A stretch of DNA of 64,000 nucleotides from a virus: the IMG/VR virus record IMGVR_UViG_3300023170_000009, positions 98,418 to 162,417 of that record; one strand, 5' to 3'. How positions within the stretch are numbered: the stretch's first letter is position 1; every line of letters starts with the position of its first letter. The notes below the pieces were generated by a model. The model was not told the DNA's origin. It ran no database searches and saw nothing but the letters and a program-made list of their open reading frames with translations. Shown here in pieces: positions 34,884-45,643 of the stretch. The position numbers and the translations under genes were made by a program.

Positions 34884-34959
34884 TGGTAGGACTGAGTGGA
34901 GTTGAACCACTGACCTTCCGCTTATAAGACGGATGCTCTAACCATTGAGCTACAGTCCC
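34884..34959 (-). tRNA. tRNA-Ile(TAT)
   Basis: Minus strand. Seven-base acceptor GGGACTG/CAGTCCT, D arm GCTC/GAGC, anticodon arm TCCGT-CTTATAA-GCGGA with anticodon TAT, and an encoded CCA (comp. of 34884-34886). It reads AUA, common in AT-rich phage genes. TAT could also be a CAT misread only if edited, which the sequence does not suggest. Confidence 0.92.
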
Positions 34960-34964
34960 ATATT

Positions 34965-35051
34965 TGGTGCCTCGGGCCGGACTCGAACCGGCACACCCAA
35001 ACGGGCGAGAGATTTTAAGTCTCTTGTGTCTACCAATTTCACCACCGAGGC
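34965..35051 (-). tRNA. tRNA-Leu(TAA)
   Basis: Minus strand, class II with long variable arm. Acceptor GCCTCGG/CCGAGGC, anticodon loop CTTAAAA with anticodon TAA, T arm GCCGG-TTCGAGT-CCGGC, ACCA at the 3' end encoded. Reads UUA. Confidence 0.92.
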
Positions 35052-35052
35052 G

Positions 35053-35129
35053 TGGCGCGCCCTGGAGGATTCGAACCTCCGACCTACGGTTTAGAAGACC
35101 GTTGCTCTAATCCACTGAGCTAAGAGCGC
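35053..35129 (-). tRNA. tRNA-Arg(TCT)
   Basis: Minus strand. Acceptor GCGCTCT/AGGGCGC (one G-U), anticodon arm CGGTC-TTCTAAA-CCG with anticodon TCT, T arm GGAGG-TTCGAAT-CCTCC, CCA encoded. Reads AGA. Confidence 0.92.
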
Positions 35130-39192: not shown

Positions 39193-39411
39193 TTACTTAG
39201 ACGAAACAAATCTATTAATATCATTTGCCATAACTTCAATTTCTTTGAAGCTAGGAAAAGCAGGCATAGATGGAAAATCTGGACTAAGCCCCGAATCTAC
39301 ATCTGCATGATATTTGGATATTAGATTATCTCGTTCCATGTGATACTGTTCAGTTAGCAAAGATTTTGCTTCAGTAAACATAGAAAATCTAAGTTCGAAT
39401 GGATTTGACAT
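39193..39411 (-). CDS. small conserved phage protein
   Basis: 72 residues from the ATG at 39411, which has a perfect AGGAGG at the right distance; the frame is open further upstream into the tmRNA end but that is not used. It begins MSNPFELRFSMFTEAKSLLT and ends FPSFKEIEVMANDINRFVSS. The NPFELRF start occurs in many marine T4-like phages. Function unknown. Confidence 0.65.
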   Translation of the reverse strand: MSNPFELRFSMFTEAKSLLTEQYHMERDNLISKYHADVDSGLSPDFPSMPAFPSFKEIEVMANDINRFVSSK

Positions 39412-39444
39412 AATAACCTCCTGTGTGTATGTGTGTGTCAAATT

Positions 39445-39472
39445 GGGCCCGTTTGATAACAAGGTGGAACCC
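39445..39472 (-). terminator. hairpin after the tmRNA coding piece
   Basis: Minus strand GGGTTC-loop of 16-GGGCCC (two G-T pairs), then AATTTGACAC. It could mark the end of the tmRNA precursor or a pseudoknot stem of it. No clear T-run. Confidence 0.4.
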
Positions 39473-39474
39473 TT

Positions 39475-39605
39475 ACCCCGTCTAGCTTAAGCAGCCAGAG
39501 AAAATACCTCATCGTTGGCATTTATTGTGTTTCATTACGGTTACGGTCGCTTGCACACCGATCCTCCACTTTCCTACTGAGCACTTGTCGAACCTGTTCA
39601 CCCCC
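39475..39605 (-). ncRNA. ssrA: permuted tmRNA, coding piece (5' half)
   Basis: Minus strand. The mature 5' end is GGGGGTG at 39605, pairing fully with CACCTCC of the acceptor piece (7 pairs, one G-U). The TTCGAC D-arm motif follows. The tag frame GCC AAC GAT GAG GTA TTT TCT CTG GCT GCT TAA (39519-39487) gives ANDEVFSLAA, the usual LAA type. P5 is TCTGGCT/AGCTAGA (39499-39481) with the TAA in its loop region, as in standard tmRNA. The 3' limit is approximate. tmRNA rescues stalled ribosomes and tags the unfinished protein for decay. Confidence 0.85.
39487..39519 (-). other. tmRNA tag reading frame, ANDEVFSLAA
   Basis: Ten codons and TAA inside the coding piece. Resume codon is GCC. Stop is in the P5 loop. 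The tag matches the ANDE start of E. coli's ANDENYALAA and the LAA end. Confidence 0.85.
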
Positions 39606-39695
39606 ATCAGATATGCACTTACCACAATTTGTTCCAATTAAGTGATACTTTTCTGTATCACCCTCTCTTACATTGTTACAAATACACAAATACAT
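39522..39695 (-). CDS. Bfd-like [2Fe-2S] mini protein overlapping the permuted tmRNA
   Basis: 57 residues from the ATG at 39695. MYLCICNNVREGD and IGTNCGKC give C4-x-C6 and CxxC (C25, C28), the cysteine layout of bacterioferritin-associated ferredoxin (Bfd), which binds a [2Fe-2S] cluster and helps free iron from bacterioferritin. The middle is about 10 residues shorter than E. coli Bfd. The first 30 residues are coded by the intervening segment between acceptor and coding pieces of the tmRNA; the rest overlaps the tmRNA 5' half. No Shine-Dalgarno. Real expression is uncertain: the precursor RNA would have to be translated before or without processing. Confidence 0.5.
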   Translation of the reverse strand: MYLCICNNVREGDTEKYHLIGTNCGKCISDGGEQVRQVLSRKVEDRCASDRNRNETQ

Positions 39696-39698
39696 ATC

Positions 39699-39758
39699 TG
39701 GTGGAGGTGGTGGGAATCGCACCCACGTCCAAATACCTTTTCAGTCCGTTTCATCAGA
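39699..39758 (-). ncRNA. ssrA: permuted tmRNA, acceptor piece (3' half)
   Basis: Minus strand. T arm GTGGG-TGCGATT-CCCAC (39726-39710), acceptor CACCTCC, A, CCA ending at 39699. In a permuted gene this half comes first, followed by the intervening segment (39698-39606) and the 5' half. ACTGA here can pair with TCAGT in the coding piece (P2). A TATAAATA lies at 39771-39764 and predicts a start near 39758. Confidence 0.85.
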
Positions 39759-40421
39759 TTAGTTATTTATAACTTCAGTCTCATAACTGTCTCTAGCGTT
39801 GAGCAATTTTTCTACATAGTTATCACGTTTTTCAACATGCACTATTGGCTCTTCGCCTTCAACAGCCATAAGAATGACTGATTGAGAAACAGGTATTCCT
39901 GTTCTTTCCTCAAACATTATAGCATAGGCAGAGCATTGAATAAAATAATTTTCGCACTGACTTCTGCTTTTTGGTTTCATTGACGTTTTAAAGTCAATTA
40001 CAGATAGTTTACCATTATATTCTGCAATACAGTCAACCTGTCCTGCAAGACGTAAATGATCACTATACATTTTTGCCTCGATTGCTCTGATATTATCAAT
40101 ATCATCTAACAAAGGGCGAAACTTACGAAACATTTCCTTATCAATATAATTGAGGTTTGTATCCTCAGTCAATTCATTATTAAGAATGTCTTCGCAAAGT
40201 TTGTGAATCTTTGTACCACGAGTTGTGGCACGTCTACTAATTTTATCTGCTTCTTTTTCGCCTATTCTTTTACGCCAAGCTTGAATGTATGGCTTAGACT
40301 TATGAGATAAAATAGTTGTAACAGATGGATATTGAGTCCCGGACGGAGTAACATATCTCCGCCCGTTCTCAGTATTAACCTGTTTAAGTTGTGGTATCTC
40401 TACCAAATTATGTGTAAACAA
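39759..40421 (-). CDS. PD-(D/E)XK exonuclease
   Basis: 220 residues. TPSGTQYPSVTTILSHKSK, then RGTKIHKLCEDIL, then LAGQVDCIAEYNGKLSVIDF, KTS. The GTxxHxxxE motif, the Asp of GQVD and the DFK of the active site show a Cas4/RecB-like exonuclease of the MGME1 type that is common in T4-like marine phages. Starts at TTG (40421), immediately after the stop of the upstream gene, so likely by termination-reinitiation. Confidence 0.8.
   Translation of the reverse strand: MFTHNLVEIPQLKQVNTENGRRYVTPSGTQYPSVTTILSHKSKPYIQAWRKRIGEKEADKISRRATTRGTKIHKLCEDILNNELTEDTNLNYIDKEMFRKFRPLLDDIDNIRAIEAKMYSDHLRLAGQVDCIAEYNGKLSVIDFKTSMKPKSRSQCENYFIQCSAYAIMFEERTGIPVSQSVILMAVEGEEPIVHVEKRDNYVEKLLNARDSYETEVINN
39764..39771 (-). 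promoter_or_regulatory. late promoter TATAAATA before tmRNA
   Basis: Exact element on the minus strand inside the last codons of the exonuclease gene. Its start site would fall at the acceptor piece, so the tmRNA may be a late product. Confidence 0.55.
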
Positions 40422-40892: not shown

Positions 40893-42008
40893 TTAGGACT
40901 TACCGTAGTCTCCCTCGCCAAATATACTGTTCATGAGGGTCTTTTTCTGCTCATTTACACCGCACAAATTCCAACAAATAGCACATTTTTTCTCTTGCCA
41001 AGAGTCTTCAAACCACTGGAAAGGTTTGCTTTCTAGGATCTCTTTGAGGGGTCTTTTGTGTAAAGACAGCTCATGCTTGTCCATGTAATGTTTGATTTGA
41101 ACTTTTAGGATCTGTGAGGACTTAAATCCTATTCTTGTAAAAGCTCCTATGTGGCAACATGGGTGTACATCTCCCCAGGCACTGATTCGTATTTCCTGAT
41201 TTCCACTTCTTGCAGAAAAACATTTAATCTCTCCTGGCTCATCCTTATATCTAGTTTCATATTGTTCCTTCATATTCTCGTAATTCAGATCTTCTGCCAT
41301 ACCTATGAATACAATAGGACGTTCAGTAAAGGTTACTGATGTTGGAGCGGGCTCTACTTCATAAAGTGTATTACCTTCCTTATCCTTAGCAATTAAATTT
41401 CCTTCTCCGCCCATGCCATTAGCATTTTTGGCATAGAACTTTGTAAAGCCAAGTTCGTCAGCTAATTTTTTAGCTTCTTCTACTTGATGTACATTGTATC
41501 CAAAGATTAAAAAATCCCATAAAGCACTAGCGCCGGTATCTAAATAAGCCTTAACATTTTCCATCACCTTATCCCACTTTACCTTTCTTCGATATAAGTG
41601 ATTGGTGTCTTCTAATCCGTCTATGGAAAATGTAACAGTACGTCTAGAATCTTTTTTCATTACATTGCCAAGTTTTGTCCAAAAATCAGTATTTTTCATT
41701 CCACCGTTGGTACATAAATTTACAACCATTGTTGGATTGGCTTCAAAGATATATTCTAGTATTTCTATAATTTCTGGGTTTGTCATAGGGTCTCCGTAAT
41801 CCCCAGAAAATGTTATGTGATTGATCTTTGAAAGAAATTCTATAGATAGCCAATTTTTAAAGTCTTCTGCTTTAATATAGGTTAGTGTTATATTAGGATT
41901 TAAATTTGGAGAACCTCGATCCTCAAATCTAGCACAAAAAAGACATTCGGCATTACAGAGACTAGATGCTTCAATGTTCAAAGACGTTATTTTATCATAT
42001 TCCCACAT
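40893..42008 (-). CDS. radical SAM enzyme with C-terminal SPASM/twitch-like cysteines
   Basis: 371 residues. CNAECLFC (C18, C22, C25) is the radical SAM CxxxCxxC motif. ITFSGDYGDPMTNPEIIEIL is the GGE-type SAM-binding region with GDYGDP, then VVNLCTNGGM and VTFSIDGLEDTNHLYRRKV. At the C-terminus are CFSARSGNQEIRISAWGDV, HPCCHIG, and CAICWNLCGV, further Cys that may bind an auxiliary cluster as in SPASM proteins. The stop overlaps the SDR gene's end at 42008. The product is unknown. Confidence 0.85.
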   Translation of the reverse strand: MWEYDKITSLNIEASSLCNAECLFCARFEDRGSPNLNPNITLTYIKAEDFKNWLSIEFLSKINHITFSGDYGDPMTNPEIIEILEYIFEANPTMVVNLCTNGGMKNTDFWTKLGNVMKKDSRRTVTFSIDGLEDTNHLYRRKVKWDKVMENVKAYLDTGASALWDFLIFGYNVHQVEEAKKLADELGFTKFYAKNANGMGGEGNLIAKDKEGNTLYEVEPAPTSVTFTERPIVFIGMAEDLNYENMKEQYETRYKDEPGEIKCFSARSGNQEIRISAWGDVHPCCHIGAFTRIGFKSSQILKVQIKHYMDKHELSLHKRPLKEILESKPFQWFEDSWQEKKCAICWNLCGVNEQKKTLMNSIFGEGDYGKS

Positions 42009-44191: not shown

Positions 44192-45643
44192 TTAAAAAAC
44201 TTTTACTTTGTAATGTTTCTCAAATTCTATAGCATCAGCTTTAGTGTTTACAATAGGTTGTCCTTTGATATTCAAACTTGTATTCAACAACATAGGACAT
44301 CTTGTTTTAGTTTTCCACTTTGTTAATAACTTATAAAGCCCTGGATTCTCATCCTTTGTAACTGTTTGAACTCTGCTAGTTCCGTCTTGATGAACAATAG
44401 CAGGATACTTTTTAGGTCTCTTTGCAGTTACAATATATTGCATATATGGAGACTTAAATCCTTCCTCAACATTAAATTCTTTGTGAACATCTTCAAGTCT
44501 AATAACAGGAGCAAAGGGTCTATACTCTTGTCTGTTTTTAATCTTGTTTACTTTATCTTTCATTTCCATGCCTCTAGGATCAGCGAGCAGAGAGCGATTG
44601 CCCAAAGCACGAGGCCCAAATTCAGCACGGCCGTTTGCCACCCCGCAGATCCCAGTGGTAACCAATTCTTCCAAAACTTCACTTACAGGATATTCCCCCT
44701 CAATGTTGTAACCTAGATAAGGACCTTGCCAATTTATTTTTTCTCCTTTGTTTGCTAGTATAGCACCCAAAGATGAACCAGCATCACCTGGGTTAGGCAT
44801 AATCCAACTTTCATCAAAATATTGTGATATCAATCTGTTGGCCAAACAATTTAAAGCACACCCTCCCATTACAACAATGTTTTTCTCGCCTGTTATTTTC
44901 TTTGTTTCTTTTAATAACGCTGTAAATTTAAATTCATAAAATTTTTGTACAGAAGCGGCAATGTCAAAATATTCTTGTTCTGTATATAACTCAGCACGCC
45001 AAGGCCTAATGCCCCTATGAAAATTTAATCCAGAATTCCAAAGATATTCAACGTCTTTATAATACTTATTAGGGTCTCCGTAAGCAGCCATACCCATTAA
45101 AATATATTCGTCTTCGTTTGCCTTTAGCCCTACCCTATCAGTAAATGCAGAATACATCAATCCCAATGACTTTGGGTAATACCAACGTTTTTTACATTTC
45201 ATTTTATTGCCGTTGGCTTGCCATATAGAAGTGGTTGTAAATTCTCCTATAGCATCTATTACTAATATTGCTGCTTTATCAAATTTAGAAGTATAGTAGC
45301 CTGCCGCTGCGTGGGATTTGTGATGATCACCCCATTCAATTTTTGTTTTTGTAATGCCATATTGTTTCATGTAAACTGCAGGATTTAACCATCTGTTTTT
45401 CTGTCCAGCATAAACTTTTCTTAAAAACTTCCAACTAGGATCTTCGTACCAATGTATTTTATCAGGATACCCAAACTTTAGTGCATCCTTTACAATAACA
45501 TTATTTAAATCTTTATCGTTTTTAACTCTACTGTATCTTTCCGAATGAGATGCAAATACGATCTCATCGTCCTTAACTACTGTAAGAGAACCGTCATGCG
45601 TGCCTGCTGCTACGCCCCATTCTATCATTGATATTTTCTCCAT
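44192..45643 (-). CDS. carbamoyltransferase (NodU/TobZ family)
   Basis: 483 residues. WGVAAGTHDGSLTVVKDDEI and GDHHKSHAAAGYYTSKFDKA give the metal/ATP site of the Kae1-like domain, VVMGGCALNCLANRLISQYF and EFGPRALGNRSLLADPRG the second domain. The family makes carbamoyl-AMP from carbamoyl phosphate and transfers the carbamoyl group to a hydroxyl of a sugar or antibiotic. Usual family length is 550-600, so the protein is short, mainly at the ends. It overlaps the radical SAM gene by 19 bases and is last in the operon. Confidence 0.88.
   Translation of the reverse strand: MEKISMIEWGVAAGTHDGSLTVVKDDEIVFASHSERYSRVKNDKDLNNVIVKDALKFGYPDKIHWYEDPSWKFLRKVYAGQKNRWLNPAVYMKQYGITKTKIEWGDHHKSHAAAGYYTSKFDKAAILVIDAIGEFTTTSIWQANGNKMKCKKRWYYPKSLGLMYSAFTDRVGLKANEDEYILMGMAAYGDPNKYYKDVEYLWNSGLNFHRGIRPWRAELYTEQEYFDIAASVQKFYEFKFTALLKETKKITGEKNIVVMGGCALNCLANRLISQYFDESWIMPNPGDAGSSLGAILANKGEKINWQGPYLGYNIEGEYPVSEVLEELVTTGICGVANGRAEFGPRALGNRSLLADPRGMEMKDKVNKIKNRQEYRPFAPVIRLEDVHKEFNVEEGFKSPYMQYIVTAKRPKKYPAIVHQDGTSRVQTVTKDENPGLYKLLTKWKTKTRCPMLLNTSLNIKGQPIVNTKADAIEFEKHYKVKVF

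Follow-up and report, generated by a model that had tools for sequence, protein, structure and literature searches.

We describe a permuted tmRNA gene of a T4-like phage in which the spacer between the two tmRNA pieces probably doubles as a protein gene, encoding a small Bfd-like protein (mini-Bfd). This reading is built on three features legible in the sequence, namely the tmRNA architecture, the selection on the coding content of the spacer, and a predicted helix, adjoining the acceptor stem, that takes in the start codon. The gene lies in a stretch of 64,000 nucleotides (hereafter, the window) of a 162,417-base IMG/VR virus record, where it is surrounded by T4-like genes, including gp32-type and gp59-type genes, an exonuclease, and a T4 baseplate protein; the record and these neighbours support the phage origin given in the original prediction for this DNA.

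The permuted tmRNA gene is real, and all of its described elements are present (Table 1). ARAGORN reported a tmRNA* at 39396-39791 on the minus strand, with the tag ANDEVFSLAA, and the Rfam model tmRNA_permuted (RF04321) matched 39760-39487 on that strand with 110 bits (cut-off 47, E 1.4e-20). The 3' half comes before the 5' half over about 39760-39440, the acceptor consists of seven pairs including a G3.U70-type wobble and is followed by CCA, and the tag frame has a ClpX-type LAA end with its stop inside a hairpin. The two-piece tmRNA originally predicted from the letters is thus borne out by both programs, and its T arm, seven-pair acceptor, CCA, GGGGGTG/CACCTCC pairing, TTCGAC, ten-codon tag, and P5 hairpin with the stop in the loop were all found in their expected places; the piece ends at 39699 and 39605 are right as sequence positions. 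The covariance-model search that had been suggested as a check gave scores above the cut-off for tmRNA_permuted and for alpha_tmRNA (70.2 bits, cut-off 50), with beta_tmRNA falling below it (80.5 bits, cut-off 84). What the prediction missed, while correct about the tmRNA elements, is the open and conserved reading frame between 39699 and 39605.

Table 1. Features of the permuted tmRNA locus, in window coordinates.
Feature	Position	Strand	Basis
TATAAATA, T4-type late promoter motif	39764..39771	-	exact match, 64 nt upstream of CCA end
tRNA-like 3' half (acceptor piece)	39699..39760	-	RF04321 match and sequence
T arm GTGGG/CCCAC	39726-39710	-	sequence
Acceptor 3' strand CACCTCC	39709-39703	-	sequence
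A + CCA	39702-39699 (CCA 39701-39699)	-	sequence
Intervening spacer (ITS/IVS), 93 nt, hairpin stacked on acceptor stem	39606..39698	-	fold
tmRNA 5' half (mRNA piece), 3' end approximate	39440..39605	-	ARAGORN, Rfam, sequence
Acceptor 5' strand GGGGGTG	39605-39599	-	sequence
TTCGAC	39592-39587	-	sequence
Tag frame GCCAACGATGAGGTATTTTCTCTGGCTGCTTAA = ANDEVFSLAA + TAA	39487..39519	-	ARAGORN
P5-type hairpin CTGGC-TGCTTAA-GCTAG, tag stop in loop	39482..39498	-	sequence
Spacer-encoded ORF, 57 aa	39522..39695	-	sequence, homologs, codon selection
Upstream exonuclease gene (PHROG 298), conserved neighbour	39759..40421	-	relatives L020-L034

Comparison with related virus contigs, whose tags read ANDEVFSLAA, ANDEVFALAA or ANANDYALAA, reveals changes that preserve pairing. 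The tag-stop hairpin has CTAGC in relatives and CTGGC in the window, an A-U to G.U replacement that keeps the pair with GCTAG, and the T arm shows a compensating change between GTGGG/CCCAC and GCGGG/CCCGC. The T loop of the window tmRNA (39721-39715, TGCGATT) has a G at the position of U55, a residue that is nearly universal, and this G is common to several related phage tmRNAs. In relatives L020-L034 the exonuclease gene adjoins the tmRNA or lies upstream of it within about 1.1 kb. Related phages (L030-L034) keep the tmRNA and have no spacer ORF; three of them (L030, L031, and L034) are identical upstream of the tmRNA and have clearly different T-arm/spacer/acceptor blocks (74, 109, and 76 nt), as if the tRNA-like module had been exchanged like a cassette, and the sequences downstream of the tmRNA in L031 and L034 match at 98% too.

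The spacer ORF begins with an ATG 3 nt past the CCA and ends with a TAA right before the resume codon. Its first 30 codons (39695-39606) are encoded by the spacer and form the conserved domain, MYLCICNNVREGDTEKYHLIGTNCGKCISD, after which the frame reads through the mature tmRNA 5' piece to the stop, giving the tail GGEQVRQVLSRKVEDRCASDRNRNETQ. The domain carries the motif CxC...CxxC, in which C4, C6, C24, and C27 are invariant in 43 sequences, and a family profile matched Bfd structures with E 8e-6, covering the full domain. Like Bfd (Fer2_BFD, PF04324), the mini-protein starts MYxCxCN and has four cysteines in the order CxC...CGKC; unlike Bfd, it lacks about 14 residues of the stretch that separates the cysteine pairs, and the alignment to Bfd 4e6k accordingly has a 14-residue gap there, leaving the helical segment incomplete. 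Because the window ORF as a single sequence scored 10.7 bits against Pfam Fer2_BFD, below the cut-off of 26 (the best family member reached E 1.2e-5), we call it Bfd-like and do not file it as Bfd. An AlphaFold model of the window ORF was too poor to serve as a search query (mean pLDDT 48). We infer both the expression of the ORF and the function of its product: most likely, the mini-protein is a small redox peptide or adaptor that holds a [2Fe-2S] cluster or zinc. PHROGs holds no family for it, tblastn found no match in annotated phages, and the window's record has no further copy of the mini-gene.

The first 27 residues have relatives across many virus contigs. Stand-alone mini-Bfd ORFs have 31 codons and up, and several share sequence with the stop codon before them (TAATG); in other contigs the mini-Bfd is fused at the N terminus of a UvsW helicase (L058) or of a T5orf172-domain protein (L057). 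The spacer ORF shares up to about 85% identity over 27 residues with such stand-alone or fused genes. The mini-Bfd also stands upstream of other permuted tmRNAs (L156, L158, L163, and L165) and inside the spacer in four lineages, namely the window clade, L055, L105, and L081, which differ in their tags (ANDEVF[SA]LAA, ANDDVYDYAMAA, ANDDNYYQEFALAA, and AANDAFFDGEVLPLAA); in all, about eight lineages have it within a permuted tmRNA or upstream of one. The ATG lies 3, 3, 3, and 7 nt from the CCA in the four spacer lineages, a distance that was limited by one search pattern but not in two other homolog searches, and none of the four has a stop in the spacer.

Codon by codon, these comparisons indicate that purifying selection acts strongly on the mini-Bfd domain (pN/pS 0.06-0.15). 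Over 30 codons, 9 of the 11 differences between the window and L023, which has the ORF in the same clade and position, fall in third positions (permutation p 0.0006, pN/pS 0.08). The 30 spacer codons gave a similar picture against L055 (10/13 third-position, p 0.0008, pN/pS 0.06) and L105 (16/24, p 0.0001, pN/pS 0.15). The tail, where the frame overlaps the mature 5' piece, showed no consistent pattern of codon selection and is wholly different in sequence between lineages, which places the end of the protein domain at about the end of the spacer.

The same nucleotides are predicted to form a long helix. The stretch from the T arm to TTCGAC (39734-39586) folds with -57.4 kcal/mol (z -6.4; none of 200 shuffled sequences did as well), and in the predicted fold the spacer helix continues the 7-bp acceptor stem, with the AUG and the next codons pairing to those that specify the end of the domain. 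In L055, L105, and L081 the predicted layout is the same, with L081 pairing mainly its leader and first ORF bases. A further spacer ORF, compared between L251 and L290, shows a compensating change within the helix (GATATG/CATATC to GACATG/CATGTC). Since the window ORF has no Shine-Dalgarno sequence before its ATG and its start is buried in the predicted helix, its translation may be weak; probably it is translated weakly, and perhaps from nascent or freshly cut RNA. As the spacer contains no stop, a spacer that is fully excised would be a nonstop message.

Protein-coding spacers are not limited to the mini-Bfd. The methylophage Melnitz has a spacer ORF with GGAGAA shortly 5' of its ATG (MFKWLSKTRLVVITRDYFRERNRKADAKIPKYLSGTRSVYDGG...), which is unannotated and has relatives in 18 virus contigs (L171-L188). 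These Melnitz-type ORFs show a third-position excess (to p 0.0003) with pN/pS of about 0.2-0.5, and in L185 and L186 the ORF has its own stop within the spacer; PHROGs has no family for the Melnitz spacer protein. In the MDEQ-type family (L312, L313, L316, and L318), the ORF runs from or near TAAGGATTGTATG to a TGA at the spacer end, with Shine-Dalgarno and stop present and pN/pS of 0.15-0.48. An MDEQ-type ORF lies outside an intact tmRNA in L317. In L314 and L315 it is found between CCACCA and a TGATGAGCCTG remnant, with no ARAGORN tmRNA and with a further T-arm-like start downstream, which suggests a decayed copy.

When permuted tmRNAs in viral contigs were surveyed without regard to spacer content, 52 distinct spacers measured 64 nt or more. 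ATG ORFs filled the spacer in 13 of the 52, against 7.0 expected from shuffles, so that a bare spacer ORF is weak evidence; spacer ORFs with a Shine-Dalgarno sequence numbered 4, against 0.48 expected. Most short phage spacers hold no convincing ORF. Further candidates are single membrane helices (L223, L251/L290, and L291) and a zinc-finger-like peptide (L275). With at least three unrelated families, together with the membrane-peptide and zinc-finger-like candidates, it is tempting to speculate that the spacers of phage two-piece tmRNAs generally harbour small protein genes expressed late, in which case the precursor RNA would choose between rescue RNA and mRNA and the two outputs would be coupled during late infection; we hold this broader proposal as tentative, and somewhat doubtful.

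The timing of expression is suggested by the TATAAATA motif upstream of the tmRNA. The window holds 17 copies of TATAAATA against 10.2 expected, and thus a single copy alone is weak evidence. Among 83 sequence clusters of phage permuted tmRNAs, the motif occurs at most 200 nt upstream in 15, as compared to 1 of 83 in a reverse-strand control, and in 11 of these 15 clusters it is placed 64-78 nt from the CCA end. The authors of the Melnitz study inferred an early promoter (PMC9004378), whereas the placement of the motif across clusters makes late expression the better inference for this group. The suggestion that the phage copy rescues ribosomes late in infection accordingly gains support in its timing part.

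We postulate that transcription from the TATAAATA promoter would take place late in infection and that the fate of each transcript would then depend on what happens first. If the transcript folds first, host RNase P and 3' nucleases would cut out the two-piece tmRNA, which would work with host SmpB, and the ORF would be silenced. If a ribosome loads first, the mini-protein would be made, since translation of the frame, which crosses the TTCGAC region as well as the acceptor strand, would block folding of the tmRNA. Reasoned from this geometry, tmRNA and mini-protein would be largely mutually exclusive per molecule.

The simplest challenge to a protein-coding spacer is that this is an ordinary phage permuted tmRNA whose spacer is non-coding, with a frame open by chance and conservation arising from the RNA hairpin only. 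Such spacers do form a helix, most short ones lack a convincing ORF, and the number of spacer-filling ORFs exceeds that in shuffled sequences only modestly (13 vs 7.0). Against this stand the third-position excess with pN/pS of 0.06-0.15, the resemblance to stand-alone or fused genes in unrelated contexts, which reaches about 85% identity across 27 residues, the Shine-Dalgarno spacer ORFs (4 vs 0.48 expected), and the finding that L186 and L312 hold complete genes that include a stop, and we consider a non-coding spacer very improbable. The converse, a relic tmRNA in a locus that persists for its protein alone, would fit the G at U55 in the window clade and several relatives, but it is hardly credible given that relatives preserve the tag, acceptor, TTCGAC, and hairpins and show compensating changes, that L030-L034 retain a tmRNA without the ORF, and that the late promoter motif has a set placement.

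Granted that the spacer is coding, its bond with the tmRNA could be regulatory or positional only, and we give the two similar weight. The mini-Bfd may be a passenger gene that recombined into the spacer, translated and useful yet functionally unlinked to the tmRNA, with the spacer being a tolerated landing site in a late transcript; we put this at close to an even chance. Unrelated proteins share the spacer position, the same genes occur outside the spacer and upstream of the tmRNA (L158, L156, L165, and L317) as well as far from any tmRNA found, and the T-arm/spacer/acceptor block varies between phages with identical upstream flanks. On the other hand, about eight lineages joining mini-Bfd and tmRNA would, by an informal argument, exceed chance for a rare gene. 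A more intimate connection would be a self-targeting nonstop gene, in which the excised spacer serves as a leaderless nonstop mini-mRNA and this same tmRNA tags the resulting protein for destruction; if so, the protein would appear only when trans-translation fails. The ATG 3, 3, 3, and 7 nt past the CCA and the lack of a stop inside the spacer in all four mini-Bfd lineages are what such a gene would look like. Yet the ATG of the excised spacer stays in the predicted hairpin, the other spacer families have their own stop, and the ATG distance was limited by one search pattern, though not by two others, and we regard self-targeting as unlikely.

A two-piece phage tmRNA is a known kind of gene, and its protein-coding spacer is the new part. 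The statement in the original prediction that no permuted phage tmRNA is well described is outdated, as Melnitz has one and the same paper lists 53 two-piece tmRNA predictions in phages (PMC9004378). The window gene resembles the permuted tmRNAs of RF04321 and RF01849-RF01851 in gene order, acceptor and T arm, TTCGAC, LAA-ending tag, and stop in a hairpin, and differs from them in that its spacer encodes a selected protein domain. Melnitz ssrA (MZ577097) is likewise a two-piece phage tmRNA, downstream of a PD-D/ExK nuclease, and has the late motif upstream of its CCA, at 77 nt (64 nt in the window); it differs in its tag (ANDNYVPVDYALAA) and in its spacer protein, which has a Shine-Dalgarno sequence and is unannotated in the record. 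Its neighbourhood is similar to that of the window gene, and downstream of it follow genes for a late-transcription coactivator, a gp59-type loader, and ssDNA binding. A glutamine riboswitch in Melnitz (L170:46398-46446) lies at the 3' end of the tmRNA gene, outside the spacer.

Among open PMC papers we found none on protein ORFs in the spacer of a permuted tmRNA. In the passages of the 2025 tmRNA database paper that treat the intervening sequences of permuted genes, the only contents named are a tRNA-Ala gene and a repetitive element, with no protein genes (PMC11915505). A Sinorhizobium small-ORF paper was considered as a precedent and rejected because it concerns the tag itself. The tmRNA genes with group I introns, as presented in that paper, likewise carry a protein ORF, for a homing endonuclease, in a segment absent from the mature tmRNA (PMC11915505). 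Theirs, however, is a self-splicing intron in the T loop, whereas the phage ORFs occupy a processing spacer and do not resemble endonucleases. A looser parallel concerns coding regions that end up without a stop codon, as that of the window can. In this respect it resembles arfA, a host nonstop gene under trans-translation control, although arfA is a separate host gene and its link to the window would be hypothetical. The "processing waste" of two-piece tmRNAs thus carries selected protein genes in phages, including the cultured Melnitz, in whose record only the tmRNA is annotated at the spacer locus. Such spacer genes are a new kind of overlap between structured RNA and protein gene, show one way in which annotation misses small phage proteins, and suggest a link between trans-translation and the expression of small phage proteins late in infection.

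The tmRNA had also been expected to point to the host group, which it does not: the scores of the clade models are not decisive, and the tag matches no host. ANDEVFSLAA, in any codon spelling, had no cellular copy in 84,980 bacterial and archaeal genomes, with the exception of one 7,902-base contig (L002, NZIJ01000043.1) in a Halieaceae MAG bin, which has the same tag, is also in IMG/VR, and is likely a phage contig inside that bin. In searches for DNA similarity to known phages, the tmRNA gave only short, apparently spurious matches and the flank gave none. No SmpB gene was found in the phage record, so host SmpB would have to serve. Relatives of the tail protein are found in distant T4-like phages, at about 25% identity at best. 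Elsewhere in the window, the phage encodes a radical SAM/SPASM protein and a carbamoyltransferase (40893-42008 and 44192-45643), as well as three clustered tRNA genes (Ile-TAT, Leu-TAA, and Arg-TCT; 34884-35129).
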